Source: an uncultured Ignavibacteria bacterium
GTDB lineage: Bacteria > Bacteroidota > Ignavibacteria > Tepidaquicellales > OLB5
DNA: 64,000 nucleotides
Reading direction: 5' to 3'
NCBI GenBank assembly: GCA_937873695.1
Contig: CALMYL010000021.1
Span: forward strand, 62,001 to 126,000
How positions within the stretch are numbered: position 1 is the stretch's first letter; each line of letters starts with the position of its first letter. The notes under the pieces are model-generated. The model ran no database searches, was not told the origin of the DNA, and saw only the letters and a list, made by a program, of their open reading frames with translations. The translations under genes and the position numbers were made by a program. This document shows positions 27,009 to 44,208 of this stretch, one piece after another.

Positions 27009-27470
27009 TTGTTTCAAGGGCACTCAAATACTACTATTGATGAAAAAGGCAGATTAATTATTCCTGCCAAGTTCCGCAAGCATATCTTGCCGGAAGCTAA
27101 TGGTATATTGAATGTTACCCTTGGGCGTGATAACTGCATTTGGCTGTTTCCTTCAAATGAATGGATGAAGGTTCTCGAAACCGTACGATCGACCAATCCA
27201 TATACAGATGATGAAGTACTGATGAGAAGGCAAATGTTCTTTTATGCTGATGAGCTTACCGTAGATTCACAGCACAGAATATTGATTCCCCAGGAAATGA
27301 AAGAAATAGTCGGTATCAAAAAAGAAGTACTTCTTTTGGGACAGCTTGAACGCATAGAACTCTGGAATCCGGATACTTATAATAAGTATCTTAAAGGGAG
27401 TCCGGATACATACGAAGGCGTCATGCAGAAAGTGATGACGAAGCTTTATACCAAAAATACCGGTGAGTAG
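27009..27470 (+). CDS. mraZ: Transcriptional regulator MraZ
   Basis: 153 aa. Two SpoVT/AbrB-like halves: FQGHSNTTIDEKGRLIIPAKFRK at the N-terminus (in pieces, residues 2-24) and DELTVDSQHRILIPQEMKE around 82-100. Each carries the DxxGR/QHR-P MraZ motif. Known role: ring-forming DNA-binding protein that controls the mra/dcw cluster. The start is TTG, chosen because homologues begin MFxG and no in-frame ATG lies upstream. The rsmH start is 3 bases after the stop. Its probable operator (TGGAG repeats) is 63-96 bases upstream. Confidence 0.95.
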   Translation: MFQGHSNTTIDEKGRLIIPAKFRKHILPEANGILNVTLGRDNCIWLFPSNEWMKVLETVRSTNPYTDDEVLMRRQMFFYADELTVDSQHRILIPQEMKEIVGIKKEVLLLGQLERIELWNPDTYNKYLKGSPDTYEGVMQKVMTKLYTKNTGE

Positions 27471-27473
27471 ATT

Positions 27474-28412
27474 TTGGATGAAGAATTCTATCACGAACCT
27501 GTTCTTCTGAAAGAAACCACACAGTATCTTTTAGAAGCACACAGAGGCGATTCAAATGGCACAAAAAGGGTTTATGTTGACTGCACACTTGGAGGCGGCG
27601 GTTACACCAAAAAAATATTAGAAGATTCACCCGAAGAAACTGTAGTAATTGCAATAGACAGAGATTTTTACGCAATTGAGCACTGCAAAAGGGTTCTTTC
27701 AGCATATGCAGGCAGGATAATTTTTAAGCAGCAGAACTTTGGAGATATTAAAGATATAATTCAGAGTGAAGGGTTTGAAAATATTGACGGCATAGTAATG
27801 GATCTTGGGCTTTCAACTTACCAGTTAAGCAGCGAAGCAGGGTTCAGTTACCAGAAAGATACAATGCTTGATATGCGTGCTGATAAAAGCCAGCAGTTAA
27901 CCGCAGCAGACGTTCTTAATACATACAGTGAAAAGGATTTGGCTGAGATCCTGTATAAATACGCTGAAATGAGATACAGCAGGCAGATAGCCAGAGAGAT
28001 AGTTGAATACAGGAAAGAAAAAAAGTTTGAAACAACTTTCCAGTTAACGGAGCTTTTAAGCACCAAAGTACCACCCAGATTTTTGAACAGTGATCTATCA
28101 AGGCTTTTCCAGGCAATCAGAATTGAAGTGAACAATGAACTAGAGAACCTTGAGCGTGTACTTGAAGATTCACCGGAGATGATGACAGAAGGGGCAAGAA
28201 TAGTTGCAGTATCATACCACTCGCTGGAAGACAGGATAGTAAAGAAAGCGTTGCGTTCAAATGAAAAGCTTAAGGTATTGACGAAGAAACCTGTAGAGGC
28301 ATCTGAGGAAGAGATAAATTCAAATGTAAGATCAAGAAGCGCCAAGCTTAGAGCTGCAGAAAAGAACTCAAATAAACAGGGCAGTAAAAACAAATACAAA
28401 AAAGATATTTAA
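27474..28412 (+). CDS. rsmH: 16S rRNA m4C1402 methyltransferase RsmH (MraW)
   Basis: 312 aa. N-terminal EEFYHEPVLLKETTQYL and the SAM-binding VDCTLGGGGYTKKIL (~33-47) are diagnostic, as are GIVMDLGLSTYQLS (~104-117) and VVSYHSLED-type VAVSYHSLEDRIVKK (~245-259). It methylates N4 of C1402 in 16S rRNA using S-adenosylmethionine. The start is TTG at 27474, giving MDEEFYHEPV; the ATG at 27478 is out of frame. Its stop codon abuts the GTG of ftsL with no gap. Confidence 0.96.
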   Translation: MDEEFYHEPVLLKETTQYLLEAHRGDSNGTKRVYVDCTLGGGGYTKKILEDSPEETVVIAIDRDFYAIEHCKRVLSAYAGRIIFKQQNFGDIKDIIQSEGFENIDGIVMDLGLSTYQLSSEAGFSYQKDTMLDMRADKSQQLTAADVLNTYSEKDLAEILYKYAEMRYSRQIAREIVEYRKEKKFETTFQLTELLSTKVPPRFLNSDLSRLFQAIRIEVNNELENLERVLEDSPEMMTEGARIVAVSYHSLEDRIVKKALRSNEKLKVLTKKPVEASEEEINSNVRSRSAKLRAAEKNSNKQGSKNKYKKDI

Positions 28413-28727
28413 GTGAGAAGCCCGAAACAAAGAAAAATTTCGTTATTCAACCTGATGGTTATGCTGTTTATAACTGCGGGAATAATAGTTTTCTTTGTTA
28501 ACAATATTATTTCGGTTAATTCACTTGTAGTAGATAATAATAACGTAAGAACAGAAATAAACAAAACCGTTACATCAAACAATAATTTACAGACTGAAAT
28601 AGAACGCTTAACGAATTTTGATAACATAAAGAATACTGCAGTAGATAAACTCGGACTCCAGTATTCAACAAGTAAACCCAAAAAGATCACAATAGAGAGG
28701 TCTGAACTGGAAAAAATCACTCAATAG
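28413..28727 (+). CDS. ftsL: FtsL-like division protein
   Basis: 104 aa, single-pass: short basic cytoplasmic N-terminus, one membrane helix (~13-34, MVMLFITAGIIVFFVNNIIS) and an extracytoplasmic coiled coil (~38-80) with Asn/Leu heptads. Sequence identity in FtsL is always low; position between rsmH and ftsI, size and topology support the call. Known partners are FtsB/DivIC and FtsQ, which together activate FtsW-FtsI. The start is GTG immediately after the rsmH TAA. Confidence 0.82.
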   Translation: MRSPKQRKISLFNLMVMLFITAGIIVFFVNNIISVNSLVVDNNNVRTEINKTVTSNNNLQTEIERLTNFDNIKNTAVDKLGLQYSTSKPKKITIERSELEKITQ

Positions 28728-28775
28728 TAAATAAATAATACATACAAGCCGGAGTGTGTAACCGGCAAAAAAGCA

Positions 28776-30884
28776 ATGCGGGAAAGAACAAACACAAATA
28801 TTAAGGCGAACACAGAAAGAAGAATAACGATCTTTATGGCTGTGTTCGCTTTGTTATTTCTGGTTATCCTGTATAAACTATTTACTATCCAGGTAATTGA
28901 TGCTGCAAGGTACCAGCTTGCGGCAAAAAAACAGTACGAAAGCAAGATCTCGCTTAAATCATCGCGCGGTATTATCTTCGACCGAAAAATGAACTCTCTT
29001 GTTTCAAATATCGTAATGTATTCATTTGCTGCCGATCCGAACATGGTTGATAACAAGGATTCAGTTGCGCAGGTATTTGCGGATATTTTTAAAAAAGACA
29101 AGAGTTACTACCTGGATAAACTGAATTCCAAAAACACTTCTTTCGTATGGCTTGAAAGGAGAATCGATCCCAAGTTTGAGGCGCAGGTAAAAGATATTAG
29201 TTTTTCTGGTGTAATAAAGCTGAATGAACCGAACAGGATATTTAACTATGATAAGCTTTCATCTCAGATAGTAGGTTACACAAACATTGATAACAACGGC
29301 TTAAGCGGAATTGAGCTTGAGCTAAATGAAATGCTATCAGGCAAAGAAGGATATGTTGTCATGCAGAAAGACGGCCTTGGAAGAAAACGTCCCGCAGTAG
29401 AGTACCCAAGGCAGGAACCTGTTGACGGCAACAATGTCATTTTAACAGTTGATATGAACCTTCAGAAAATTGCCGAAGAAGAACTGACTGCCGGTGTTGA
29501 GGCGAATAATTCTACCGGCGGAAAAGTAATTGTTATGAATGTTAAAACAGGTGAGATACTTGCAATGCACTCAATTAACAATGACGGAAGCAGCCAGGAT
29601 AAGATAGCTGAAATAACTGATCTTTATGAGCCCGGTTCAACATTCAAAATTGTGACAGGCGCAGCTGCGCTTGAAGAAAACATGCTAAGTAAGTTTGATG
29701 TCATAAACACCTATGGCGGTGAATATATGAATATCAAGGATTCACACAAATCATCAAGCATGACCTTTCAGCAGGTAATTGAACAATCAAGCAATATAGG
29801 AACAATTCAGGTAGCAAACCGGCTTGGCAGGGAAAGATTTTACAAGTACGCCAGGGATTTTGGTTTTGGTATCACAACGGGGCTTGATTTGCCCGGAGAA
29901 GTAAAAGGCAGATTAAAAAAACCAGTTGAATTTTCGCCCGTTTCGCTCAATTACATGGCAATTGGATACGAAGTGCTTGTAACAGCACTGCAAATGACCA
30001 ATGCTTACGCATGTGTAGCAAACGGCGGAATGATGATGAAGCCGTATATTATAAAGAAAATACTCGCTCCAGACGGTACTTTGTTAAAAGAGTATAAACC
30101 CGTTGAAATTAGAAATGTAATTTCAAAAACAACAGCAAAAGCGCTTACCGAGCTTTTTGTTGGTGTTGTTGAAAACGGTACCGGTAAAGATGCGCGTATA
30201 GAGAATATTAAAATAGCAGGCAAAACCGGAACATCTCAGAAAATGGTTGAAGGAAAATACTCAAAAAGTAAATATACTTCATCATTTATGGGTTATTTTC
30301 CCGCAGAAAATCCGCAGATCGTAATTGCCGTCATAATTGACGCTCCGGGTGCAGGTGAGTATTACGGCGGAAAAGTTTCCGCGCCGATTTTCAAAAAAAT
30401 TGCTGAGAGGATAATTAACTTAACGGGTCTGCATGAATTTTCAGCCCCGGAAAATAACGCGGATATAGTGCTGACATCAAACAGCAAAGTTGATAACACC
30501 TCACTAAATCTTGTGAATTTTGATATCAGTGATGCAATAAGATTCCTTAATGAAAATGAGATTCCCTTTGAGGTTGAAGGCGCGCGTAAGAACGCAATTG
30601 TTGTTTCACAAGAGCAATTCACAGATGAAAAAGGGAACAGGAAAATTAAGCTTGTGACTGCAGGTGCTAACCAGGATGATAAGCTGAATAAGGATAGCCA
30701 CGTTAAGATGCCGGAATTAAGAGGAATGAGTGTAAGGAAATGTATCAAAGTAATGTCCACACTCGGGATCGATTACAAAGTGAACGGGTGCGGCAAAGTG
30801 ACAGCACAGGTACCCGAAGCGGGTACGCAGCTTGCGAAGAATCAGCAGGTAATAATAAATTGTGATCCCCCGGGGAAATTTTAA
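28776..30884 (+). CDS. ftsI: Septal peptidoglycan transpeptidase FtsI (PBP3-like) with PASTA domain
   Basis: 702 aa. One membrane helix (~17-38), a pedestal domain, then the transpeptidase with active-site S288 in STFK, SSN at ~338-340 and KTG at ~483-485. The C-terminal region (~578-700) has a weak PASTA-like segment and a clearer PASTA domain (MPELRGMSVRKCIKVM, ending VIINCDPP). It cross-links septal peptidoglycan with FtsW. PASTA tails on FtsI are common in Bacteroidota and Gram-positives but absent in E. coli. All catalytic residues are present. Confidence 0.95.
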   Translation: MRERTNTNIKANTERRITIFMAVFALLFLVILYKLFTIQVIDAARYQLAAKKQYESKISLKSSRGIIFDRKMNSLVSNIVMYSFAADPNMVDNKDSVAQVFADIFKKDKSYYLDKLNSKNTSFVWLERRIDPKFEAQVKDISFSGVIKLNEPNRIFNYDKLSSQIVGYTNIDNNGLSGIELELNEMLSGKEGYVVMQKDGLGRKRPAVEYPRQEPVDGNNVILTVDMNLQKIAEEELTAGVEANNSTGGKVIVMNVKTGEILAMHSINNDGSSQDKIAEITDLYEPGSTFKIVTGAAALEENMLSKFDVINTYGGEYMNIKDSHKSSSMTFQQVIEQSSNIGTIQVANRLGRERFYKYARDFGFGITTGLDLPGEVKGRLKKPVEFSPVSLNYMAIGYEVLVTALQMTNAYACVANGGMMMKPYIIKKILAPDGTLLKEYKPVEIRNVISKTTAKALTELFVGVVENGTGKDARIENIKIAGKTGTSQKMVEGKYSKSKYTSSFMGYFPAENPQIVIAVIIDAPGAGEYYGGKVSAPIFKKIAERIINLTGLHEFSAPENNADIVLTSNSKVDNTSLNLVNFDISDAIRFLNENEIPFEVEGARKNAIVVSQEQFTDEKGNRKIKLVTAGANQDDKLNKDSHVKMPELRGMSVRKCIKVMSTLGIDYKVNGCGKVTAQVPEAGTQLAKNQQVIINCDPPGKF

Positions 30885-30914
30885 CCGGAATAGATACTAA
30901 GCCATTAATTTAAA

Positions 30915-32405
30915 ATGAAATTCAGTGAAATGCTGACAATTGCAGAAAATGAAATGATCAACCTGGAAGAAAGCTTTGATTTTGAGATCAATAAGCTTAC
31001 TGCCGGCTCAAATGACGTTGAGCAGAATGACATTTTCTTTGCAATTAAAGGATTTGTAACTGATGGCAACAAGTATGTAAAAGACGCATTGAACAGGGGC
31101 GCGAAGGCTGTTATTACTGATGGCGACCCCGGAATGATAGATGGGAGAATTCACAAAGTAGCAGACGCCCGCAGGACAATGGCGAAAATGAGCATTGCTT
31201 ATTACGGATTTCCTTCGGCTAAAATGAAAATGGTGGGTGTGACCGGCACCAATGGCAAGACTACTGTAACATCAATGATAAATTTTGTTCTGCAGTCACT
31301 TGGTAAAAAGACAGGGCTCATAGGGACAAACGGAAATTATATCAATAAGAGATTTCTGAAGACTGAACATACTACACCGGATGCAATTGAGCTTAACAAG
31401 CTGCTAAAAGAGATGATAGATGAAGACGTTGAAATTGCAGTGATGGAAGTATCTTCTCACTCACTGGCGCTTTGCAGGGTATACGGAATAGAATTTGATA
31501 TTGCTGTTTTCACGAATTTAACTCCTGAACACCTGGACTTTCACGGTGATATGGCCGGTTATTTCGATACAAAAAAAATGCTGTTTGATTCGTTGAAAAG
31601 AATTGGCGCTAAGGGCTTACAGCCTGCGGCAATTTACAATTGTAATGATGAATACGGCTCTAAGATCGTTTCAGGAAGTGAAGCGGAAAGGATTGCGTAC
31701 GGATTTGGGTGCGGTACATTTACTGCCAAGAAAATTGAGATGGATATTAACGGTATGAGCTTTGAAGTACTTGTGCCAAGGAACGGCGAAGATGTCGACA
31801 GAATCAAAATAAAAACAAAACTGACCGGAAAGTTCAATGTATCAAACATTTTAGCCGCTGTAGCGGCTCTGCACTCACTGAATGTAAATTACAAAGATAT
31901 AATTAAGTATATAGCTGAATTTGATTCAGTTGACGGAAGGTTTAACAGGGTAAAACTGAATAACGGCGCAGATGCGATAATTGATTATTCGCATACACCT
32001 GATTCACTGTTAAAAGCGCTCACAACCATCAGGGAAATACTTGATGAAAGCGGTTCAAAAGGAAAGATAATAACCGTGTTTGGCTGCGGCGGCAACAGGG
32101 ATAAAGCCAAAAGGCCTATGATGGGAAATATCGCAGTTACTAACAGCAATGAAGTGATAATAACATCTGATAATCCAAGAGATGAAGAGCCGATGAGCAT
32201 AATTGAAGATATTAAAGCCGGGATTTCAAGCGATAACTATACCGTTGAAGAAGACCGTGAACTTGCAATTAAAAAAGCAATTGAAATAAGCGGCAAAGGT
32301 GACATTATACTTATAGCCGGCAAAGGTCATGAAACATACCAGGAAATTAAGGGTGTTAAGCATCATTTAAGCGACAGGGAATTAGCTGAAAAGTACGGAA
32401 AATGA
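30915..32405 (+). CDS. murE: UDP-MurNAc-L-Ala-D-Glu:meso-diaminopimelate ligase MurE
   Basis: 496 aa, cytoplasmic Mur ligase. The ATP-binding loop GVTGTNGKTT (~112-121), HTTPDA (~155-160), central-domain SSHSLAL and C-terminal FGCGGNRDKAKRP are all family features. The substrate-selecting motif DNPR (in TSDNPRDEEP, ~420) is the form found in meso-DAP-adding enzymes, so the third peptide residue is probably mDAP rather than lysine. The stop overlaps the murF start (ATGA). Confidence 0.96.
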   Translation: MKFSEMLTIAENEMINLEESFDFEINKLTAGSNDVEQNDIFFAIKGFVTDGNKYVKDALNRGAKAVITDGDPGMIDGRIHKVADARRTMAKMSIAYYGFPSAKMKMVGVTGTNGKTTVTSMINFVLQSLGKKTGLIGTNGNYINKRFLKTEHTTPDAIELNKLLKEMIDEDVEIAVMEVSSHSLALCRVYGIEFDIAVFTNLTPEHLDFHGDMAGYFDTKKMLFDSLKRIGAKGLQPAAIYNCNDEYGSKIVSGSEAERIAYGFGCGTFTAKKIEMDINGMSFEVLVPRNGEDVDRIKIKTKLTGKFNVSNILAAVAALHSLNVNYKDIIKYIAEFDSVDGRFNRVKLNNGADAIIDYSHTPDSLLKALTTIREILDESGSKGKIITVFGCGGNRDKAKRPMMGNIAVTNSNEVIITSDNPRDEEPMSIIEDIKAGISSDNYTVEEDRELAIKKAIEISGKGDIILIAGKGHETYQEIKGVKHHLSDRELAEKYGK

Positions 32406-33790
32406 ATCTGCAGCTTGATGATATCAGGAAAATTCGCGGAGTAAAGATACATAACGATGAGGTTATTGGAAAAAGGAAGTTTACCGGTGTTTCGATTGAT
32501 TCAAGAAAATGCAGCGCAGGTGATCTCTTCTTTGCGATAAAGGGAGAAAGATTCGACGGACATGATTTTCTAAGCGAAGTAAAAGCAAAATGCGCAGTTG
32601 TAACAGAAAAATGGTTCAGAAAAAATAAAGCGGCAGCAAAGCGTTCTTTTAAAAACAGATGTTTCATCATAGTTAAGGATACCGAAACAGCTCTCGGTGA
32701 AATTGCACGGGTTTACAGAAACAAATTCGTTATACCCGTAATTGCAGTCAGCGGCAGCAACGGAAAGACATCAACCAAGGATTTTATTGCTGAAGTGCTT
32801 GAAGCAAAGTACAATGTTTTAAAGACTGAAGGCAACCTGAATAACCAGCTTGGTGTACCGCTAACGCTTTTCAGGTTAAGAGCTGAACATGAGATAGCTG
32901 TAATTGAAATCGGCACCAATCACTTCGGTGAGGTCGAAAAACTCTGTAGTATAGCGGAACCTCAATTCGGGATAATCACAAATATAGGCAAAGAACACCT
33001 GGAATTCCTGATTGATATTAAAGGCGCTGCCAGGGCTGAAGGTGAATTAGTAGAGTATCTTAAAAAGGTTTACGGAACATTTTTCCTGAATGCGGATGAC
33101 AAGTATCTTGAAAAGTACAGGAAATATAAAAATATAAAGACTTTCAGTTTCGGATTCAAAGGCAGGGCGGAAGTTAAAGCAAAAGTAAAAGGCTTCAATA
33201 AGTTTTACGCTGAACTTGAAATAAATTTTAACAATAAAAAGATCAAAGCTCAATTAAAAAATATCGGGTATCAAAGCTGTAACGCGGCACTTTGTGCCGC
33301 AGCAGTTGGTTTCTACTTCGAAGTCCCGGTTCGTGACATAAAACAGCGGATATCACGGTATAAAATTGAGTCAAACAGGCGCAACCAGCTTAAAAGCATT
33401 AACGGGGTCTGGGTTATTGATGATACATATAATTCCAACCCTGATTCCGTTAAAGCTGCGCTTGAAAATCTTAAGGCGTACCGCATAACAGGCAAAAAAT
33501 ATATAGCTCTTGCTGATATGCTTGAGCTAGGCAAAGCAAGTAAAAAAGAACACTCATCGATCGGTAAAATGGTTAAACAAATGAAGTTTGAAAACCTGTT
33601 AACGTACGGTTCTGATTCATTTAATACCCATAGAGCTGCCAAAGGTGTAAAGAATAATTTCTATTTTGATGATAAGCAGTCAATGAGTTCATTTTTGAAT
33701 CTTCAGCTTAAAAAAGGAGATGTTCTGCTGGTTAAAGGTTCGCGCTCAATGAAGATGGAAGAAATAATCAATAACATATCCGTAAACTAA
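32402..33790 (+). CDS. murF: UDP-MurNAc-tripeptide:D-Ala-D-Ala ligase MurF
   Basis: 462 aa. The N-terminal fold KFTGVSIDSRKCSAGDLFFA (~22-41) is the MurF substrate domain. The P-loop VSGSNGKTSTKDF is at ~116-128 and the downstream VIEIGTNHFGE (~166-176) and DDTYNSNPDSV (~340-350) are characteristic. It adds D-Ala-D-Ala to complete the pentapeptide precursor. Four-base overlap with murE indicates coupling. The sequence is Lys-rich but otherwise standard. Confidence 0.95.
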   Translation: MNLQLDDIRKIRGVKIHNDEVIGKRKFTGVSIDSRKCSAGDLFFAIKGERFDGHDFLSEVKAKCAVVTEKWFRKNKAAAKRSFKNRCFIIVKDTETALGEIARVYRNKFVIPVIAVSGSNGKTSTKDFIAEVLEAKYNVLKTEGNLNNQLGVPLTLFRLRAEHEIAVIEIGTNHFGEVEKLCSIAEPQFGIITNIGKEHLEFLIDIKGAARAEGELVEYLKKVYGTFFLNADDKYLEKYRKYKNIKTFSFGFKGRAEVKAKVKGFNKFYAELEINFNNKKIKAQLKNIGYQSCNAALCAAAVGFYFEVPVRDIKQRISRYKIESNRRNQLKSINGVWVIDDTYNSNPDSVKAALENLKAYRITGKKYIALADMLELGKASKKEHSSIGKMVKQMKFENLLTYGSDSFNTHRAAKGVKNNFYFDDKQSMSSFLNLQLKKGDVLLVKGSRSMKMEEIINNISVN

Positions 33791-33807
33791 TAAAATTCCA
33801 CAGGTAA

Positions 33808-34917
33808 ATGTTATACTATTTAGCGGAATATATAAATAAAACTTTTAATCCACCGGGATTCGACGTTTTCAGATTTTTAACCTGGAGATCGGCTCTTTCC
33901 GCTATTACGGCTATGATAATTTGTTTCTGGATAGGCCCGAAGATATTGAAGATACTGAAAAGAAGACATGTGGGCGAAGAAATCAGACACGATGGCCCCC
34001 AGACTCATTTTTCTAAGGCGGGCACCCCGACAATGGGCGGTGTAATAGTATTGCTGGCAATTCTTGTACCGGTGATATTATGGGGTGACCTTAAAAATAC
34101 ATACATACTGCTTATGCTTCTGGCCACAGTTTGGATGGGTCTTGTCGGCTTTATAGATGATTATCTTAAGGTCGTTAAAAAGATGAAAAAGGGACTGGTA
34201 GCACGATACAAATTAATGAATCAGATCGGCCTTGGAATAGTAATAGCCTGTCTTATTTACTTTCTTCCTGAATTTCAAAAGATAAATTCTGTTACTACTA
34301 TACCGTTCATTAAACAAATCGAGTTTGATTTTTCGTATTTCTACATACCGCTCATGGTATTCATTATTACTGCTACATCTAATGCTGTAAATCTGACAGA
34401 CGGGCTCGACGGGCTGGCTATAGGAACGGTTGGAATAGCCGGACTTGCGATAGGTTTGATAGCGTATTTATCAGGAAATGAAATTTTCAGCCGCTACCTT
34501 GATATAATTTACCTGCCGGGCAATGGTGAACTTGCAGTTTACTGCGCAGCTTTGGTTGGCGCTTCGCTTGGATTTTTGTGGTTCAATTCATACCCTGCGC
34601 AGGTTTTTATGGGTGATACCGGTTCACTGGCGCTTGGCGGAGCTATTGGAACACTATCAATACTGATAAAGAAAGAGTTTTTACTTCCGATACTTGGCGG
34701 AATATTCTTCGCTGAATCACTTTCTGTGATAATCCAGAGATATTACTTTAAATATACAAAGAAGAAATATGGTGAAGGCAGAAGGATATTGAAAATGTCA
34801 CCGCTTCATCATCATTTTGAGCTAAGCGGTATTCCGGAACCGAAGATTGTAACGAGATTTTATATTGTGGCTGTTATCCTTGCGATATTGACGTTCGCAA
34901 CATTTAAGATAAGGTAA
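33808..34917 (+). CDS. mraY: Phospho-MurNAc-pentapeptide transferase MraY
   Basis: 369 aa, ten predicted membrane helices. Diagnostic loops: the GTPTMGGV-type AGTPTMGG (~71-78), FIDDYLKV (~116-123), NLTDGLDGLA (~196-205) and MSPLHHHFE (~330-338), which carry the catalytic Asp and His residues of the family. It transfers phospho-MurNAc-pentapeptide to undecaprenyl phosphate, forming lipid I. Standard length. The gene that follows (34945) is not a usual member of this cluster. Confidence 0.97.
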   Translation: MLYYLAEYINKTFNPPGFDVFRFLTWRSALSAITAMIICFWIGPKILKILKRRHVGEEIRHDGPQTHFSKAGTPTMGGVIVLLAILVPVILWGDLKNTYILLMLLATVWMGLVGFIDDYLKVVKKMKKGLVARYKLMNQIGLGIVIACLIYFLPEFQKINSVTTIPFIKQIEFDFSYFYIPLMVFIITATSNAVNLTDGLDGLAIGTVGIAGLAIGLIAYLSGNEIFSRYLDIIYLPGNGELAVYCAALVGASLGFLWFNSYPAQVFMGDTGSLALGGAIGTLSILIKKEFLLPILGGIFFAESLSVIIQRYYFKYTKKKYGEGRRILKMSPLHHHFELSGIPEPKIVTRFYIVAVILAILTFATFKIR

Positions 34918-34944
34918 ATAATTAAATCTATAAAAGGATCAGAT

Positions 34945-35598
34945 ATGAAAACAACAAAATTAACAAGAACCCTCGTTTTATTATTCCTCTTTACGGGAAT
35001 TACATTTTCACAGCTTTCAGTTGGAGAGCTTAAATTGAAATCTGATGATAATTCAGGTTTGAATTTAAACTCATATAAATTAAAATCAACAGGAGGTAAA
35101 ACGAAGCTTATGCAGAAGCCTACAAAGAAAATTTACTTTGTTCCGGGCGGTAAAATAGGCATGTTTTTCCTTCAGGGTGACTACAACGGCAACCAGCTTA
35201 TATCACTCGAAGCATTCGGCAAGTATGTTGGTGACGGCTTCTGGGCAGAAATAAGTATACCGTTCAGATTTAAAACAAGTCCTGCTTTTACCGATATAGG
35301 ACTAGATATAAACGTAATGTATCCGTTCCTCGGTTCATCTAACAAATCAGAAGTTGACCCGTTTGTAGGGGGCGGGCTCGGACTCCATTTCATCGGCAGA
35401 GATAGGGACGACCCGAATAAAACAAGTGTAGCCGCCCGCGGGGGTCTAGGTCTTAATCTTATCGCAGGAGCGGTTTTTTTCAGGAATTACGATTTTAATA
35501 TAATGATTGAGCTGAAGTACTTTAATTACCTCAGGGAGTTTGATGACCTAAGGTACCAGGGTATAGGCTTAAATGTAGGTGTAACTTTCCCAAGGTAA
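34945..35598 (+). CDS. Secreted, probable beta-barrel protein inside the mur cluster
   Basis: 217 aa. Signal peptide (hydrophobic ~9-21, cleavage after TFSQ). The mature protein is beta-rich with alternating strands: FVPGGKIGMFFLQGDY, FWAEISIPFRFKT, IGLDINVMYPFLG, FVGGGLGLHF, RGGLGLNLIAGAVFF, ending GLNVGVTFPR. This is the outline of an 8-strand outer-membrane barrel, though the terminal residue is Arg, not aromatic. It lies 27 bases after mraY and 6 before murD, with an AAGGA site upstream, so it must be cotranscribed with wall-synthesis genes. Not a known dcw gene; function unknown. Confidence 0.75.
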   Translation: MKTTKLTRTLVLLFLFTGITFSQLSVGELKLKSDDNSGLNLNSYKLKSTGGKTKLMQKPTKKIYFVPGGKIGMFFLQGDYNGNQLISLEAFGKYVGDGFWAEISIPFRFKTSPAFTDIGLDINVMYPFLGSSNKSEVDPFVGGGLGLHFIGRDRDDPNKTSVAARGGLGLNLIAGAVFFRNYDFNIMIELKYFNYLREFDDLRYQGIGLNVGVTFPR

Positions 35599-35604
35599 AT
35601 TACT

Positions 35605-36975
35605 TTGATAGACATTTTAGAAAAAGAAAAGAAAGTAACGATAGTAGGCGCGGCAAGAAGCGGTGTTGCCGCTGCGAAGCTGCTTAAGAGAAAAGGATTT
35701 GATGTTTTTTTAAGCGATTCTACTGATGAAGCTAAAATTGACAGAACATTTTCAGCTGAAATAAAAGAAAAAGGAATTGCACATGAATTCGGTATTCATT
35801 CGGATAGGGCTTTTGAATCCGAAATCATGGTTGTAAGTCCGGGTGTACCGCAGAATTCCGCTATAATACAAAAGGCGCTTGCTAAAGGTATAAATGTTGT
35901 AAGTGAAATTGAGGCGGCTTCCTGGTTCTGCAGAGGAAAAGTAATTGCAATAACCGGAACGAACGGCAAAACTACAACCACAACGCTGATAGGCGAGATC
36001 TTTAAAGATGCCGGTTATAAAACATTTGTTTGCGGAAATATTGGTATAGCTTTCAGCGATATAGTTGAACAGACGGATGAAAAATCAATTGTTGTGCTTG
36101 AAACAAGCAGCTTTCAGCTTGATAACATAAAGAATTTCAAACCATTTATATCAATTTTGCTGAATGTTACTCCGGACCATCTGGATAGATATGAATCTTT
36201 TGAAAAATACCTCGAATCAAAAATGAGAATAGCGGAAAATCAGAGCAGCAGTGACTATTTTGTTTTTAATTATGATGATGAGCTTGTTCGCCGCTCAGCT
36301 AACAGTGTGAATGCAAGCAAATCGGCTTTCAGCCTGAATGTTAACGTTAAACAGGAAACCGGCACAGGTGCTTATGTAAATAATATGGACCTTATCTACT
36401 ACTATTACATGGGTGAAGAAAACGTTATAGATACACAAAAGCTGGTAATAAAGGGAGATCATAACGTGTACAATGCGATGGCATCGGTTATTTCTGCAAA
36501 GATTTTTGGTATCGAAAAGGAATATATAAAGAAGACACTTGAAAACTTTAAGGGTGTTGAGCACAGACTTGAGTATGTTAGAGAGCTTGACGGAGTTAAA
36601 TATTATAATGATTCCAAAGCTACAAACGTAAATTCGGTATGGTATGCGCTGAAAGGATTCACAGAACCGCTTGTACTTATTCTTGGAGGAAAAGATAAGG
36701 GCAATGATTACACCCAGATTGAAAAAGAAGTAAAAGAGCATGTAAAGCATATAATCGCTATCGGCTCATCAAAACAGAAAGTATATGATTTTTTCAAAGA
36801 TAAACTGCCTGTAACAATGGCAGATGATATGAATGATGCTGTTGTTAAAGCCAAAGCAAATGCAGTAAGCAATGATGTAGTACTGCTCTCACCGGCATGC
36901 GCCAGCTTTGATATGTTTGATAATTACGAACACAGAGGACTGGTTTTCAAAGAAATAGTTAATTCACTAAAGTAA
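35605..36975 (+). CDS. murD: UDP-MurNAc-L-Ala:D-glutamate ligase MurD
   Basis: 456 aa. N-terminal Rossmann-like VTIVGAARSGVAAAKLL (~10-26), ATP loop ITGTNGKTTTTTL (~115-127), LETSSFQLD (~165-173) and the C-terminal NDSKATN (~333-339) plus LLSPACASFDMFDNYEHRG (~432-450), all MurD hallmarks. It adds D-Glu to UDP-MurNAc-Ala. The start is TTG, 7 bases after the barrel-gene stop. The ftsW GTG follows after 4 bases. Confidence 0.96.
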   Translation: MIDILEKEKKVTIVGAARSGVAAAKLLKRKGFDVFLSDSTDEAKIDRTFSAEIKEKGIAHEFGIHSDRAFESEIMVVSPGVPQNSAIIQKALAKGINVVSEIEAASWFCRGKVIAITGTNGKTTTTTLIGEIFKDAGYKTFVCGNIGIAFSDIVEQTDEKSIVVLETSSFQLDNIKNFKPFISILLNVTPDHLDRYESFEKYLESKMRIAENQSSSDYFVFNYDDELVRRSANSVNASKSAFSLNVNVKQETGTGAYVNNMDLIYYYYMGEENVIDTQKLVIKGDHNVYNAMASVISAKIFGIEKEYIKKTLENFKGVEHRLEYVRELDGVKYYNDSKATNVNSVWYALKGFTEPLVLILGGKDKGNDYTQIEKEVKEHVKHIIAIGSSKQKVYDFFKDKLPVTMADDMNDAVVKAKANAVSNDVVLLSPACASFDMFDNYEHRGLVFKEIVNSLK

Positions 36976-36979
36976 ATAA

Positions 36980-38128
36980 GTGGAACCAAGAGTAAATAAA
37001 ATAGACCTGTGGCTTCTGATACCTATCCTGGCGCTGATAACATTCAGTCTTGGGGTTGTATACAGTGCATCATCCAGCTGGTCGGCAAAAATGAGCGGCG
37101 ATAGCGCAATGCTTTTCCGCAATCATTTGATGAGGGCCGGCATGGGTATATTCTTGATTTTTCTTGTTTCCAGGGTAAGTTACCTGCAACTTATAAAATA
37201 CAGAAAGTACCTTATGGGTGCGGCGATACTTATGCTTTTGTATCTTTTGTTTGCCGGTGTTGAAACAACAAAGGGTGCTGCCAGATGGATCTATATCGGG
37301 GGATTCAGCTTTCAGCCGGCTGATTTTGTTAAATACGCTTTGTTGATAAACATAGCATACTTACTTTCTAAAAAGAAAGATTACATCCACAATCTGTATT
37401 ATGGCTACCTGCCGGTACTGGGCTACGTACTGGCCGTTGTTGCATTAATTGCTGTTCAGCCGAATTTTTCTACTGCAAGTGTAATATTTATTACAAGCCT
37501 TATGGTTTTCTGGGTAGGGAAAGTGAAAATGAAACATATGGCTATAACGATTGCCTCTATGGTACCGGCTGCAATATTGTTTGTGCTTTCGAAACCGTAC
37601 ATTCTTAACAGGATATTTTCTTACCAGGAGCATACTTCAGGCGGTACCGGTAGTTACCAGCTATCACAGGCGATAATTGGGTTCGGTAACGGCGGGTTTT
37701 TCGGGGTCGGACCGGGTAACTCTAACCAGCGTGAGCTGTTTCTTCCGCAATCTTATGATGACTTTGTGTTTTCTATTGTGGGTGAAGAATACGGCTTCTG
37801 GGGAGTTACAATTGTAATATTACTTTTCGGAATTTTTGTTTACCGCGGATTAAAGCTTTCAAAAAGCATTCCTGATGATTTCGGGAGGTATCTGGCATTT
37901 GGAATAACAATAATTATTGGGATGAATGCTATTATCAATATGATGGTGGCAACAGGTATGATCCCCACAACGGGACAGACACTGCCATTTATCAGCTACG
38001 GCGGAACTTCGATAATATTTAATTCAATTGCGGTTGGAATTTTACTGAATATATCAACATACAGAGTGCAGCCTAAAGGGGCGCTGCTAAGAGAGTCACT
38101 GGCAGCGGCAGGCAACTCACATGAATAG
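36980..38128 (+). CDS. ftsW: Septal peptidoglycan glycosyltransferase FtsW (SEDS)
   Basis: 382 aa, about ten membrane helices. SEDS family signatures are visible: GAARWIYIGGFSFQPADFVK (~95-114), which includes the conserved QPxE/D-type motif, the LSQAIIGFGNGGFFGVGPG region (~229-247) and the C-terminal MIPTTGQTLPFISYGGTS (~332-349). It polymerises lipid II at the septum with FtsI. The start is GTG. The order murD-ftsW-murG is classical. Confidence 0.96.
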   Translation: MEPRVNKIDLWLLIPILALITFSLGVVYSASSSWSAKMSGDSAMLFRNHLMRAGMGIFLIFLVSRVSYLQLIKYRKYLMGAAILMLLYLLFAGVETTKGAARWIYIGGFSFQPADFVKYALLINIAYLLSKKKDYIHNLYYGYLPVLGYVLAVVALIAVQPNFSTASVIFITSLMVFWVGKVKMKHMAITIASMVPAAILFVLSKPYILNRIFSYQEHTSGGTGSYQLSQAIIGFGNGGFFGVGPGNSNQRELFLPQSYDDFVFSIVGEEYGFWGVTIVILLFGIFVYRGLKLSKSIPDDFGRYLAFGITIIIGMNAIINMMVATGMIPTTGQTLPFISYGGTSIIFNSIAVGILLNISTYRVQPKGALLRESLAAAGNSHE

Positions 38129-38134
38129 ATCTGA

Positions 38135-39235
38135 ATGATTAGCAGGATAATTTTTGCGGCCGGTGGAACCGGAGGACATATATACCCGGCAATTGCGATT
38201 GCCGATGAGCTGGTAAAATTAAACAGCAGTATAGAGATTAAGTTTGTAGGGGCAAAAGGCAGGATAGAAGAGAAGATAATTCCTGCAAACGGTTACAAAC
38301 TTGAAACAATAGAAATAACCGGATTTAAAAGAAGCTTAAATTTAAAAAATATATCAGCAGCATTAAAGATATTCAAAGCACTGAAAGACTCGAAAAAAAT
38401 ACTGAAAGATTTTGCACCTGAGCTGGTTTACGGCACAGGTGGTTTTGTATCGGGTCCGGTGCTAAAAGCAGCACAATCGCTGGATATGCCCAATGTAATA
38501 GAAGAAGGTAATTTCTATCCGGGTGTTACAGTTAAACTGGTTTCACCAAAGGCTGATAAGGTAATACTGAATTTTGAAGGTACAAGGAAATTCCTTAAAC
38601 GCACAGATAATACTGTAGTAATGTCATACCCGGTAAGGGAAAACATGAAACAGCATAACAGGGCAGATGCTGCCAGGTATTTCGGACTGGATGAGAGCAA
38701 AAAAATTCTTTTCGTTTTTGGCGGAAGCCAGGGAGCAAGGAGCATTAACTCAGCTCTGCTTAAGTGTTTCAAGAATATTACCGGTTCAGGTACTCAGATA
38801 ATATGGCAGACAGGCGAGAGTGATTTTGAAATGGTTAATTCAGCAGTGTCATCAAATAACAGTGTGAAAGCACTGAAATATATAGATAAGATAGATTATG
38901 CATATTCATGCTGTGACCTTGTTGTTTGCCGTTCTGGAATATCAACAATAATGGAGCTTGCCGGTTTTGGTTTACCTGCAATATTTGTTCCGTACCCTCT
39001 GGCAAGCGAAAATCACCAGGAAAAAAATGCAAGGGCGGTAACAGAAAAGAACGGCGCGGAAATAATCCTGGATAAGGACCTCAACCAAAAACTTGAAACT
39101 TCAATATTAGATCTGCTTAGTGATGAGAACAGATTAATTTACATGAAAAGCAATATAAGCAAACTGGCGGATAAAAAGGCAGCTTCCCGGATCGCAGCAA
39201 TGCTTGTTGAAATGGTAACAAAAAGCAGCAATTAA
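38135..39235 (+). CDS. murG: Lipid II synthase MurG (GlcNAc transferase)
   Basis: 366 aa, GT28 family. The N-terminal glycine loop AAGGTGGHIYPA (~7-18), GFVSGPVLKAA (~102-112), FGGSQGARSIN (~199-209) and the UDP-GlcNAc-binding region CRSGISTIMELAGFGLPAIFVPYP (in the ~262-290 span) are intact. It adds GlcNAc to lipid I on the inner face of the membrane. It begins 6 bases after ftsW; a small membrane-protein gene follows. Confidence 0.96.
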   Translation: MISRIIFAAGGTGGHIYPAIAIADELVKLNSSIEIKFVGAKGRIEEKIIPANGYKLETIEITGFKRSLNLKNISAALKIFKALKDSKKILKDFAPELVYGTGGFVSGPVLKAAQSLDMPNVIEEGNFYPGVTVKLVSPKADKVILNFEGTRKFLKRTDNTVVMSYPVRENMKQHNRADAARYFGLDESKKILFVFGGSQGARSINSALLKCFKNITGSGTQIIWQTGESDFEMVNSAVSSNNSVKALKYIDKIDYAYSCCDLVVCRSGISTIMELAGFGLPAIFVPYPLASENHQEKNARAVTEKNGAEIILDKDLNQKLETSILDLLSDENRLIYMKSNISKLADKKAASRIAAMLVEMVTKSSN

Positions 39236-39261
39236 TTAACAATTAATACTAAAAAATAGTA

Positions 39262-39726
39262 ATGCAGGAAAAAATTCACAGACACAGAATGGATTTTTAT
39301 TACCAGTCACTGGTAATTTACCTGCTGTTTTTTGCCGCATACGTTCTGATAAGAGGAACAGTGGGTGAAAGTTTTAAAGCGCTTTATAATGATCCGATCT
39401 TCTATATACTGATATTATTTATAATAATATTCCTCTTCCTGGTAGTGCTGAATATAATACGCTCTCCGATGATAATATTGAAGAGCGACAGGATAACATT
39501 CAGGAATCGTTTTGGCGAAAGAGAAGTGCTCTTCAGTGATATCCTGACCGTAAAAATTGGCAGAAGAAGAAAACGTGAAGAGGAGATGACATACAGGATA
39601 ATAAAACTTAAATTAAAGAACAGAAGAAAACAATTAAGGATACGTGCAAATGATTTTGAACGCGGCGGTGAACTCATAAATGAATTTTTGAAAATTAAAC
39701 AGCATTCACAGGGCGAGAAGTTCTGA
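39262..39726 (+). CDS. Two-helix membrane protein with PH-like domain, in the mur cluster
   Basis: 154 aa. Two membrane helices (~13-31 and ~45-66) joined by a short loop, then a cytoplasmic, very basic beta-rich segment (~70-125: MIILKSDRITFRNRFGEREV, then LFSDILTVKIGRRRKREEE) and a C-terminal helix. This order matches bacterial PH-domain membrane proteins. It lies between murG and murC, 26 and 8 bases away. No name in the standard dcw set; function unknown. A membrane scaffold or regulator of precursor synthesis is possible but is pure inference. Confidence 0.72.
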   Translation: MQEKIHRHRMDFYYQSLVIYLLFFAAYVLIRGTVGESFKALYNDPIFYILILFIIIFLFLVVLNIIRSPMIILKSDRITFRNRFGEREVLFSDILTVKIGRRRKREEEMTYRIIKLKLKNRRKQLRIRANDFERGGELINEFLKIKQHSQGEKF

Positions 39727-39734
39727 TCAGGCAG

Positions 39735-41108
39735 ATGAGTAAACAGAATATATATTTTATCGGGATAGGCGGAATTGGCATGAGCGGGCTTGCGGAGTAT
39801 TATCTCCGCAACGGTTATAATGTATCAGGCAGTGATATGACAGAAACACACATTACCCAAAGGCTTGCAGGACTTGGCGCTAAAATATATTACGGACACT
39901 CGGCAGTAAACATTACTCCGCAAATTGATACAGTTGTATATACATCAGCCGTAAAGCCTGATAACCCCGAGATGATAAAAGCTGAAGAGCTCGGAATCAG
40001 GAAAGTAAGACGAGCCGAGATGCTTGGCGAAATAGTAAATGATAAGTACTTAATAGCAGTATCAGGTACACATGGCAAAACCACAACTACGGCTATGATA
40101 GGTAAACTGCTGGTTGATTCGGGTCTTGACCCGCTGATTTTTGTTGGCGGTAATGTTCAGCTTTTTGATGGCGGCGCATCAAGATTTGGCAGCGGAAAGT
40201 ATGCCGTTGTTGAAGCTGATGAATATGACAGGTCTTTTTTGGCGCTGAGACCCAACATTGCAATTGTCACAAACATTGACTCTGACCACCTGGATATTTA
40301 TAAAGATCTGGAAGATATTAAAGAAACTTTCAGACAGTTCTGTGACCGCTCAAAATACGGCGCATACATGATCTACTGCGGTGATGATGAAAATATCAAA
40401 AGTTTTATGAATACAATAAACCGCGAGAAAATATCGTACGGTTATGACGAAAAGAATTATCTGAAGATAGTTGATTATAAAGCAGAAAATGACGTGCTGA
40501 ATTTTTCAATATTGAATTCGCACAGGTCATATGATAATGTAGTATTGAACATGATTGGCAGCCATAACGCTTTGAACTCAACTGCCTGTTTCGCAGTATC
40601 TAAAGTGCTTGAAATACCGTTTGATAAATACAGGGAAAGCATTAATTTATTCAGAACGGTAGACAGAAGGCTGCAGCTTAAATTTGATGCAAACGGAGTA
40701 AAGGTGTATGATGATTATTCACATCACCCTGTTGAGGTGACTGCGAGCCTTAAGGGTTTGAAAGAAATGAGCACAGGCAGGCTGAGGACAGTATTCCAGC
40801 CGCATTTGTTTACTCGTACACGCGATTTTTATAATGAGTTTGCACAGGCATTGGCAATTTCTGATGAAGTTCTGCTTATGGATATTTACCCCGCGCGCGA
40901 AAAGCCCATTGAGGGAATTACAAGCGAGCTGATACTGAACGAAGCATTGAATCACAACAGGAACATGAAACTTGTTCATGAAAGCAGGGATATTCTTGCA
41001 TGGCTTATAAATGACCTGAAGCCGGGTGATATAATTGTCTTTCAGGGTGCCGGTGATGTGACAAATCTTTGCAATGAGTTTGTAAATATTTTAAAGAACA
41101 GCAATTGA
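39735..41108 (+). CDS. murC: UDP-MurNAc:L-alanine ligase MurC
   Basis: 457 aa. The N-terminal FIGIGGIGMSGLAEYYL (~7-23) is the UDP-MurNAc domain, ATP loop VSGTHGKTTTTAM is at ~109-121, EADEYDRSFL is at ~164-173 and YDDYSHHPVEV is at ~325-335. All are MurC-specific. It adds the first peptide residue, L-Ala, to UDP-MurNAc. The stop codon overlaps the TTG of murB (TTGA). Confidence 0.97.
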   Translation: MSKQNIYFIGIGGIGMSGLAEYYLRNGYNVSGSDMTETHITQRLAGLGAKIYYGHSAVNITPQIDTVVYTSAVKPDNPEMIKAEELGIRKVRRAEMLGEIVNDKYLIAVSGTHGKTTTTAMIGKLLVDSGLDPLIFVGGNVQLFDGGASRFGSGKYAVVEADEYDRSFLALRPNIAIVTNIDSDHLDIYKDLEDIKETFRQFCDRSKYGAYMIYCGDDENIKSFMNTINREKISYGYDEKNYLKIVDYKAENDVLNFSILNSHRSYDNVVLNMIGSHNALNSTACFAVSKVLEIPFDKYRESINLFRTVDRRLQLKFDANGVKVYDDYSHHPVEVTASLKGLKEMSTGRLRTVFQPHLFTRTRDFYNEFAQALAISDEVLLMDIYPAREKPIEGITSELILNEALNHNRNMKLVHESRDILAWLINDLKPGDIIVFQGAGDVTNLCNEFVNILKNSN

Positions 41109-42010
41109 TATCAATATCAGAAATACAGAAGATCTTTAAGGGAAGGATCACATTAAATGAGCCGCTTGCCCGCTTTACAACTTTCCGTATTGGCGGAGTG
41201 GCTGATTATTTTGTTGAGCCTTCTGATATTGATGATGTAGTAAATATTGTAAAGTATGCAGCTGATCACGGGATTCCCCATTATGTAATGGGTAATGGCA
41301 GCAACATACTTATAAGTGATGATGGAATCCGTGGTATTGTAATAAATCTGGAAACAGGCTTTAATTATTTGAAGCATGAAAACGGGATGATAATTGCCGG
41401 TGCTGGAGTAAAGATCGCCAAGTTTGTTGATTACTGCATACAGAATTCGTATGCGGGAGTTGAAATGCTTGCAGGGATTCCCGCAACAGTGGGCGGCGCA
41501 TTAATTATGAATGCCGGCGCATATGGCGGCGAAACCGCTGATCATGTAACGGAAGTAAAAGTTATCAGAAATGGCAAACTAAGGATATTAAGCAAAGAAG
41601 ATTGCGGTTTTGTTTATAGAAATTCAAATTTAAAAAATACTGTAATCCTTGAAGGTACTTTTAAGCTGCCGATAGGCAACAAAGAAGAAATTTCACAGAA
41701 AAGAAAAGAGCTTATAATGAACCGCAACCAGGCACAGCCTGTTGAAGTTCCGAACGCCGGGTGTGTGTTCAAAAATCCGAAGGATAACAAAGCTGCAATA
41801 CTGATCGATCAGTGCGGTTTAAAAGGAACAAAATTCGGCGGAGCAATGGTATCAACAAAACATGCAAACTTCATTGTGAATTATGACAATGCTACAGCAC
41901 AGGATGTGATTGAACTTGTAAAAATTGTTAAGAGTAATGTTCAGCAGAAAACAGGTATAACTCTGGAAATGGAAGTAAAGCTGATTGGTTTTGAGGAGGT
42001 TACAACATGA
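41105..42010 (+). CDS. murB: UDP-N-acetylenolpyruvoylglucosamine reductase MurB
   Basis: 301 aa, type II-like length. FAD-binding GNGSNILISDDGIRG (~63-77), AGIPATVGGALIMNAGAYGGE (in the ~119-139 region) and the C-terminal GCVFKNP...GLKGTKFGGA...HANFIVN features (~218-262) fit MurB. It reduces enolpyruvyl-UDP-GlcNAc to UDP-MurNAc using NADPH. The start is TTG at 41105, overlapping the murC stop by four bases. Its presence in the division cluster is less usual in Bacteroidota, where murB is often elsewhere. Confidence 0.95.
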   Translation: MISISEIQKIFKGRITLNEPLARFTTFRIGGVADYFVEPSDIDDVVNIVKYAADHGIPHYVMGNGSNILISDDGIRGIVINLETGFNYLKHENGMIIAGAGVKIAKFVDYCIQNSYAGVEMLAGIPATVGGALIMNAGAYGGETADHVTEVKVIRNGKLRILSKEDCGFVYRNSNLKNTVILEGTFKLPIGNKEEISQKRKELIMNRNQAQPVEVPNAGCVFKNPKDNKAAILIDQCGLKGTKFGGAMVSTKHANFIVNYDNATAQDVIELVKIVKSNVQQKTGITLEMEVKLIGFEEVTT

Positions 42011-42819
42011 AGAATTGGAAAATTACTATTTTGTTTACAATTGTAATATTGTTTACTTTTTCAAGCATAGTGCTCTCAGGTCTCTGGAAAGATAAGTCTA
42101 CTATCCGTAATGTTGAATTAAAGGGCAATATTACTCTTTCAAAAGAAGAGTTGTTTGATTTTGCAAGACTGAATGATTCCATGATATGCCAGAACACACT
42201 TTCACTGGATATGATAGAAACAAGGATAGCTAAACATCCGAATATAAAAAAGGCTGTAGTTTTAAAAGACGGTGCGACAATAAAAATAGAAATTGCTGAA
42301 AAAAATCCGTTTGCAGCGGCAACCAACGGCAAGGAAATGTTTTTAGTTGATGACCAGCTTACTTTATACAGGATGAAGAAAGAACATACAAATATTGACC
42401 TGCCGGTAATAAGCGGACTTTCAGGGGAACTTGACGCCGGTGTATATGGTAAAGATGACCTCAATTGTCTCAAAATTGCGCAATATATAATCAGCCAGTC
42501 AATAAAGATCAACAAAAGCCTGTTTAACTATATATCAGAAATTAATTTTGGTGACAGTAACAGTATAATATTAATAACCAGCGATGATGCTACCCCTGTA
42601 TACTTTGTTGACTATGCCGCAGTTGATGCAAAAGGGAACAATTCAGTAAAAGATATCAATAACACGTCGCTCAGAAGATCAATAGATAATAATCTTATAC
42701 AGCTCAATGGTTTTTTAAAGCAGGTGAGGGTATACAGAACTATGAACTCATTCAGGTATATTGATCTGCGTTATAACGACCTGGTGATAGTTAAAAATAA
42801 TGATTTACCTGTTGAATGA
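42007..42819 (+). CDS. ftsQ: Division protein FtsQ/DivIB
   Basis: 270 aa, bitopic: a short basic N-terminus, one membrane helix (~6-23) and a periplasmic region starting with a POTRA domain (IRNVELKGNITLSKEELFDF, then LDMIETRIAKHPNIKKAVVL, ~33-90). The C-terminal ends in the FtsQ-like YIDLRYNDLVIVK. Position between murB and ftsA confirms the call. It connects the FtsLB module with late division proteins. Overlaps murB by four bases (ATGA). Confidence 0.9.
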   Translation: MKNWKITILFTIVILFTFSSIVLSGLWKDKSTIRNVELKGNITLSKEELFDFARLNDSMICQNTLSLDMIETRIAKHPNIKKAVVLKDGATIKIEIAEKNPFAAATNGKEMFLVDDQLTLYRMKKEHTNIDLPVISGLSGELDAGVYGKDDLNCLKIAQYIISQSIKINKSLFNYISEINFGDSNSIILITSDDATPVYFVDYAAVDAKGNNSVKDINNTSLRRSIDNNLIQLNGFLKQVRVYRTMNSFRYIDLRYNDLVIVKNNDLPVE

Positions 42820-42864
42820 TCAAACAGGATCAAAGTAATAAAAACTGAAATATTAACCAATAAA

Positions 42865-44124
42865 ATGGCTAAGAAAAAATCTGAAGAAAATATAATAGTT
42901 GGTTTGGATGTTGGCACAACAAAGATCTGTACAATTGTTGCGCAGGTAAGAGATGACGGCAGACTTAATATCCTTGGTGTGGGCAAAGCACCGTCAACAG
43001 GTCTTTCGCGCGGAATGGTTGTTAACCCGGGTAAAACGCTTGAATCCATAAAAGCATCTGTAAGGGAAGCTGAAGAGCGCTCCGGTTATGATATTAAATC
43101 GGTTACAGTTGGTATCGCGGGTCCCCATATACGCTGTATCCAGTCGGAAGGTATTGTGGCAATTTCCCATCCTGACAGGATAATTACTGAAGATGATATT
43201 GAAAGATTATATGAAAGCGCTAAGAGCCTGAAACTGAGCAAAGATGAAAAGATCATTGATGTTATTCCCCAGGAGTTTATTATTGACAGCAAAGACGGAA
43301 TCTTCGATCTGCCGATAGGTATGTTTGGGCTTAGAATGGAAGCAAAAGTTAACATTCTGACAGGGCTGGTTTCACAGATTGATGACCTTTCTAATTGCGT
43401 GCAGAGCTGCGGTGTGGATATTGATGATATTGTACTCGAGCCGCTTGCTTCATCTTATGCGGTATTAAATGAATCAGAAAAGAAGGTTGGTGTTGCAATG
43501 ATAGATATCGGCGGCGGCACAACTGATATAGCCGTATTCAAAAAAGGGGTAATAAAACACACAGCCGGGATAGGTATTGCAGGCAGCCAGGTAACAAATG
43601 ATATTTCAGAAACACTTGGAATAGATGAAAAAGAAGCCGAAAGAGTAAAGAAGGAATTTGGATATGCGATGGTTAGCGAAATTATCAATGATGATATTAT
43701 AACCATACAGGGAATAAAAGGCAGAAAACCATTAAAGATCGAAAAGAGCATTATTTCAAGGATAATCCAGGCAAGGATGGAAGAGTTATTCGTACTTGCG
43801 GGTCAGGAAATTAAACGCTCAGGTATAGAAAGCTATCTGCCGGCAGGCGTTGTTATAACAGGCGGCGGTTCATTGCTGCGCGGCACCAGGGAGCTTGCCA
43901 ACCAGGTGCTGGGTTCTGAAGTTAATCTTGGTGTGCCGATGGATATCGGCGGTGGACTCATCAAGGAAGTTGAGAGTCCGATTTACGCAACCGGTATCGG
44001 GCTCATACTGCACAGGCTGAAATATCTGAGTCATAAAAAGAGCGCCAAATCATTAAAAGGCAGAAAGCACCCCGGGCTTAAAAATGTTTTCGAGAGAATA
44101 AAACACTGGTTTGACGAATTATGA
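42865..44124 (+). CDS. ftsA: Division protein FtsA
   Basis: 419 aa, actin fold. Phosphate-1 loop VGLDVGTTKICTIV (~12-25), 1C (SHS2) insertion ~95-175, phosphate-2 IDIGGGTTDIAVF (~214-226), adenosine motif VITGGGSLLRG (~330-340). The C-terminal NVFERIKHWFDEL is an amphipathic membrane-targeting helix, as expected. It tethers FtsZ to the membrane and signals to the septal synthases. The ftsZ start lies 84 bases downstream. Confidence 0.96.
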   Translation: MAKKKSEENIIVGLDVGTTKICTIVAQVRDDGRLNILGVGKAPSTGLSRGMVVNPGKTLESIKASVREAEERSGYDIKSVTVGIAGPHIRCIQSEGIVAISHPDRIITEDDIERLYESAKSLKLSKDEKIIDVIPQEFIIDSKDGIFDLPIGMFGLRMEAKVNILTGLVSQIDDLSNCVQSCGVDIDDIVLEPLASSYAVLNESEKKVGVAMIDIGGGTTDIAVFKKGVIKHTAGIGIAGSQVTNDISETLGIDEKEAERVKKEFGYAMVSEIINDDIITIQGIKGRKPLKIEKSIISRIIQARMEELFVLAGQEIKRSGIESYLPAGVVITGGGSLLRGTRELANQVLGSEVNLGVPMDIGGGLIKEVESPIYATGIGLILHRLKYLSHKKSAKSLKGRKHPGLKNVFERIKHWFDEL

Positions 44125-44190
44125 TTTTAAATTAATAATTGAATAAAAAATTTATAAATAATTTAAACTTAAATTTCTTTCTAGGGGAAA

Positions 44191-44198
44191 GAGAAGGA
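44191..44198 (+). promoter_or_regulatory. ftsZ: Strong Shine-Dalgarno site of ftsZ
   Basis: AGAAGGAG, 10 bases upstream of the ATG, in an 84-base AT-rich gap after ftsA. It is one of the few near-consensus ribosome-binding sites in this window. Confidence 0.7.
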
Positions 44199-44208
44199 GA
44201 AAAATAAA

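Follow-up and report, generated by a model that had tools for sequence, protein, structure and literature searches.

What is a gene for a putative outer-membrane barrel doing among the genes for wall-precursor enzymes? The gene was found in a 64,000-nucleotide stretch of DNA (the window) from an uncultured Ignavibacteria bacterium, where it lies between mraY and murD of the dcw cluster. How diderm bacteria keep wall synthesis in step with the growth and constriction of the outer membrane is an open question outside the Tol-Pal and OmpA models. The cluster extends from mraZ to ftsZ on a single strand (27009..45456, +; delimited by ORFs) in the order mraZ, rsmH, ftsL, pbp, murE, murF, mraY, barrel gene, murD, ftsW, murG, orf154, murC, murB, ftsQ, ftsA, ftsZ. 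The genes mraY, murD, ftsL, orf154, and ftsQ were scanned against profiles; all other names were read from the sequence. Apart from the barrel gene the cluster is ordinary: the flanking genes follow the usual order of the canonical dcw cluster, whereas the barrel gene is an extra member.

The open reading frame (34945..35598, +) starts with ATG, is immediately preceded by the Shine-Dalgarno-like sequence AAAAGGA, and encodes a predicted secreted barrel protein of 217 amino acids. Upstream, mraY (33808..34917, +; identified by PF00953 and MraY_sig1) ends at a distance of 27 bases; downstream, murD (35605..36975, +; identified by Pfam Mur ligase domains) begins with a TTG codon 6 bases past the barrel stop, with a possible ribosome-binding AAGG, read by eye, within the final codons of the barrel gene. 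The tight spacing of the original prediction was thus measured again with the same values. In a sequence scan, terminator-like and promoter-like sites around the barrel gene were no more frequent than expected by chance, which is consistent with a single transcript; the barrel gene probably shares its transcript with the wall-precursor enzymes.

The protein was compared across 15 genomes from three genera (the window family). Residues 1-22 (34945..35010, +) form a signal peptide, called classical by eye, with a probable cut before Q23, which is invariant in the 15 rows of the alignment. Residues 23-69 (35011..35151, +) were delimited from the alignment as an N-terminal tail, whose periplasmic side follows from the barrel topology assumed below. 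Signal peptide and tail vary within the family; the tail is of low complexity with frequent LKLKS motifs, and before residue 55 it differs in both sequence and length. The end of the tail ahead of the first strand, QKP[TS]KKIYFVPGG, is nearly invariant, and the segment PFLGxxNKSExDPF is strongly conserved. In one family genome (G013; locus L103, about 7253-7400) the tail carries about five tandem GSELT-like units.

A match to the Pfam family OMP_b-brl (PF13505) was found for residues 38-215 of the window protein with E = 1.9e-8 and 35.1 bits, the curated cut-off being 28.7 bits. We take PF13505 to comprise small outer-membrane barrels akin to the OmpA barrel, OmpX, and OmpW. All 15 family members matched this profile at E ≤ 0.1; the copy of the congener G009 scored 29.8 bits, and the copy of G013 was not among the matches at E ≤ 1e-4 in the genome search with PF13505. 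The window protein resembles OMP_b-brl proteins in its signal peptide, its domain of about 150 residues, its eight predicted strands, and its score above the curated cut-off. It differs from them in its position inside the dcw operon, its extra N-terminal tail, its unusual conservation, and the lack of a close homologue outside one family. The proposal that a secreted beta-rich protein is encoded at this position agrees with both the signal peptide predicted by eye and the match to a barrel family.

Residues 70-215 (35152..35589, +) are predicted to form an eight-stranded barrel, based on PF13505, low-confidence AlphaFold2 models, and a residue alternation test. The eight strands anticipated for this protein were returned as main strands by AlphaFold2 both for the whole protein and for residues 54-217, but the mean pLDDT reached only 44-49 (44.5 and 49.1, respectively, with input alignments of 12 close sequences); in the second model, one of the eight main strands was broken in two. 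Alternation of hydrophobic and polar residues in the model strands was equally strong in 7 of 2000 shuffles, in a test which is not fully independent because the strand borders were mostly taken from the model (the first AlphaFold2 model, with the sixth strand lengthened by eye). The C-terminal strand ends in the aromatic residue F215, as C-terminal strands of outer-membrane barrels commonly do. Foldseek searches with the low-confidence model yielded 281 matches at E ≤ 10 and none at E ≤ 0.001, and the best match in a sequence search against solved structures had an E-value of only 0.15. NCBIfam gave no match for the window protein; across the 15 members, three unrelated NCBIfam models were matched by one member each, at E = 0.07 or worse.

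From the Pfam match, the two models, and the residue alternation, an eight-stranded outer-membrane barrel is likely, and we infer its outer-membrane location and topology. The barrel is probably closed, with short predicted outer loops and with charged invariant residues, among them E102, R108, K110, D117, and D121, pointing inward. The N-terminus of OmpA-type barrels is periplasmic. If this holds here as well, the outer loops would be short and the conserved segment 128-139 would be a periplasmic turn.

The gene order mraY-barrel-murD was found in 15/15 genomes of the window family across its three genera, where the original prediction had proposed a search for syntenic homologues. The spacing is short on both sides throughout the family, the start being uncertain in G003. 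The presence of the gene in all family genomes rules out a genome-specific insertion or an annotation artefact. The nearest named records were Ignavibacteria MAGs including Chlorobi bacterium OLB5 (Candidatus Tepidaquicellales at NCBI). In the OLB5 record (L041, about 3950-4000) and in L012, the likely ATG of the barrel gene does not share the frame of the rest of the gene, a run of T lying in between; either the sequence is in error or the start is disrupted.

Outside the family, the region downstream of mraY was inspected in 64 Ignavibacteria genomes (28 from the sister family, 36 from further families); family members aside, these were the ones examined out of 192 genomes of the class in which mraY was matched. 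G042, which gave no mraY match, and G047, in which mraY is cut at a contig end, had been left out before this count. Both genes were adjacent in 59 of the 64 genomes, and none of these 59 carried a barrel gene between them; in three, mraY and murD were 142 to 374 bases apart, a gap that could not accommodate this gene. Within the class, the statement that a gene of this kind is absent from the standard dcw cluster was thus upheld. The gene was lacking in all 28 sister-family genomes examined. In the remaining five of the 64 (G048, G058, G106, G331, G357) no murD was found near mraY, the contig of G357 ending about 100 bases past mraY. At loci L088 and L097 (G048 and G058), and also at L187 and L191, murD does not come after mraY and the dcw cluster is broken.

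A profile of the family gave weak partial matches in only three of 104 other genomes (G016, G075, G091; E = 2e-4 to 9e-4) and a partial match in one of 393 other genomes of the phylum (G431; E = 6e-6), the latter set overlapping the former. Being weak and partial, these four matches were rejected as orthologues and read as general likeness to PF13505; among the genomes searched, no close homologues outside the family were found by sequence. The presence throughout the family and the absence from the other genomes searched in class and phylum mark the barrel gene as an extra dcw gene specific to this family. As for published clusters, the longest dcw version listed in PMC8871954, comprising 17 genes, includes no outer-membrane protein. 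Listings and abstract openings on dcw with outer-membrane proteins and on Ignavibacteria with division contained no report of a barrel gene at a dcw position, and a search on the order name retrieved no paper. Within these listings and abstract openings, an outer-membrane barrel has not been described as a component of the division cluster.

Two further genes were observed in these clusters. The window encodes a membrane protein of 154 amino acids, orf154, between murG and murC (39262-39726), which had no Pfam or NCBIfam match above cut-off. Of 28 Ignavibacteria loci outside the family that extend far enough, 27 have it after murG, G051 being the exception, and by its gene order it is a class-wide dcw gene. 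In the cluster of another family (G052; L096, 2486-2953), a small ORF lies between murD and ftsW which by eye resembles an IS200-type (Y1) transposase.

Conservation of the barrel protein was compared with that of its neighbors. Residues 54-217 of the window protein were 88-99% identical to those of 12 congeners and 82-83% identical to those of the two other genera of the family. The corresponding values were 87-99% (11 of 12 congeners measured) and 85-88% for MraY, 72-96% and 58-68% for MurD, and 61-91% (11 of 12) and 53-61% for MurF; MurE was 63-69% identical to its counterparts in the two other genera. Conservation of these barrel residues was about that of MraY and exceeded that of MurD, MurE, MurF, and MurG. 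Within the family, dN ranged from 0.01 to 0.13 for the same residues, as compared to a dS of about 0.5 up to saturation; in many pairs, synonymous sites had come close to saturation or exceeded it, which points to strong selection on the barrel protein. By this measure, the gene is under purifying selection across the family. This selection and the identical position in 15/15 family genomes exceed what chance would give, and we regard the gene as a genuine member of the dcw cluster that is constrained and specific to its lineage.

The window genome encodes 12 PF13505 proteins above cut-off, including the dcw barrel. In a comparison with a single congener, G009, the dcw barrel showed the highest identity of these 12 (92%); the others reached 89, 87, 83, 81, 80, 74, 69, 59, 56, and 50%, and one was unmatched. 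ORFs were chosen mechanically and only best matches were used in this comparison, so that orthology of the paralogues is not assured.

PF00691, the OmpA-like wall-binding domain, was present in 0/15 members of the barrel family in a profile scan, which rules out an OmpA-type wall anchor by domain. OmpA combines its barrel with the peptidoglycan-binding PF00691, whereas the window protein shares a similar predicted barrel and may have an envelope-structural role, but is without PF00691. Elsewhere in the genome, PF00691 proteins were found in 15/15 genomes of the window family, as compared to 12/29 of the sister family. A wall anchor is therefore not missing from the window family, and a function of the barrel as a stand-in for one was ruled out. 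No support was found for the part of the original prediction that links the barrel to constriction or to wall synthesis, or has it contact peptidoglycan; the protein has no peptidoglycan-binding domain.

Several readings of the gene were weighed against these results. A soluble periplasmic beta-rich protein instead of a membrane barrel would fit the low model confidence and the lack of a significant structural match; it is very improbable given the PF13505 score above the curated cut-off, the strand alternation, and the C-terminal strand ending in F215. More weight is due to the idea that an ordinary small barrel was inserted by chance into a strong constitutive operon and was retained because of the expression level that this place provides, while its function, perhaps that of a minor channel or of a protein at the cell surface, has nothing to do with the wall. 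A place in an operon can, in general, serve expression alone, the number of PF13505 proteins in the genome shows that barrels are plentiful, and the insertion is limited to one family. Nevertheless, this explanation is weakened by a conservation of residues 54-217 close to that of MraY and by a conservation of the protein above that of the genome's remaining PF13505 proteins; furthermore, the short outer loops predicted from the models would be atypical of surface adhesins. We regard it as rather unlikely.

The recruited barrel may alternatively be a dedicated coupler, its tail or the turn near residues 128-139 binding peptidoglycan or a protein of the divisome or elongasome and so linking outer-membrane invagination to wall synthesis. 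The stable dcw position throughout the family, the constraint near that of MraY, and the unusually strong conservation including PFLGxxNKSExDPF and QKPxKKIYFVPGG argue for such a function; against it stand the absence of PF00691 or any other wall-binding domain from the barrel protein, the presence of other wall anchors in all family genomes, the variability of the tail before residue 55, and a sister family that manages without the gene. Coupling in this sense is unlikely, and we consider it doubtful that QKPxKKIYFVPGG and the periplasmic turn tie outer-membrane growth or constriction to peptidoglycan synthesis.

We favor, with about even confidence, the reading that the protein is a structural barrel of the outer membrane which carries a periplasmic tail and is co-expressed with wall synthesis. 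The product would be a small PF13505-type barrel with a signal peptide, a periplasmic tail of roughly 45 residues, and eight antiparallel strands, whose gene would have joined the dcw operon in an ancestor of one Ignavibacteria family and then stayed between mraY and murD. With a probable transcript in common with the wall-precursor enzymes, the amount of barrel would follow growth, coupling its production to that of the wall; the barrel and its periplasmic face may stiffen or anchor the outer membrane while the wall grows. From the operon membership together with the strong conservation, a growth-coupled envelope role is no more than plausible. The gene is confined to a single lineage, represented here largely by MAGs; a putative barrel that every family member keeps in its dcw cluster, under a constraint similar to that on MraY, offers a concrete candidate for a link between the outer membrane and wall growth.
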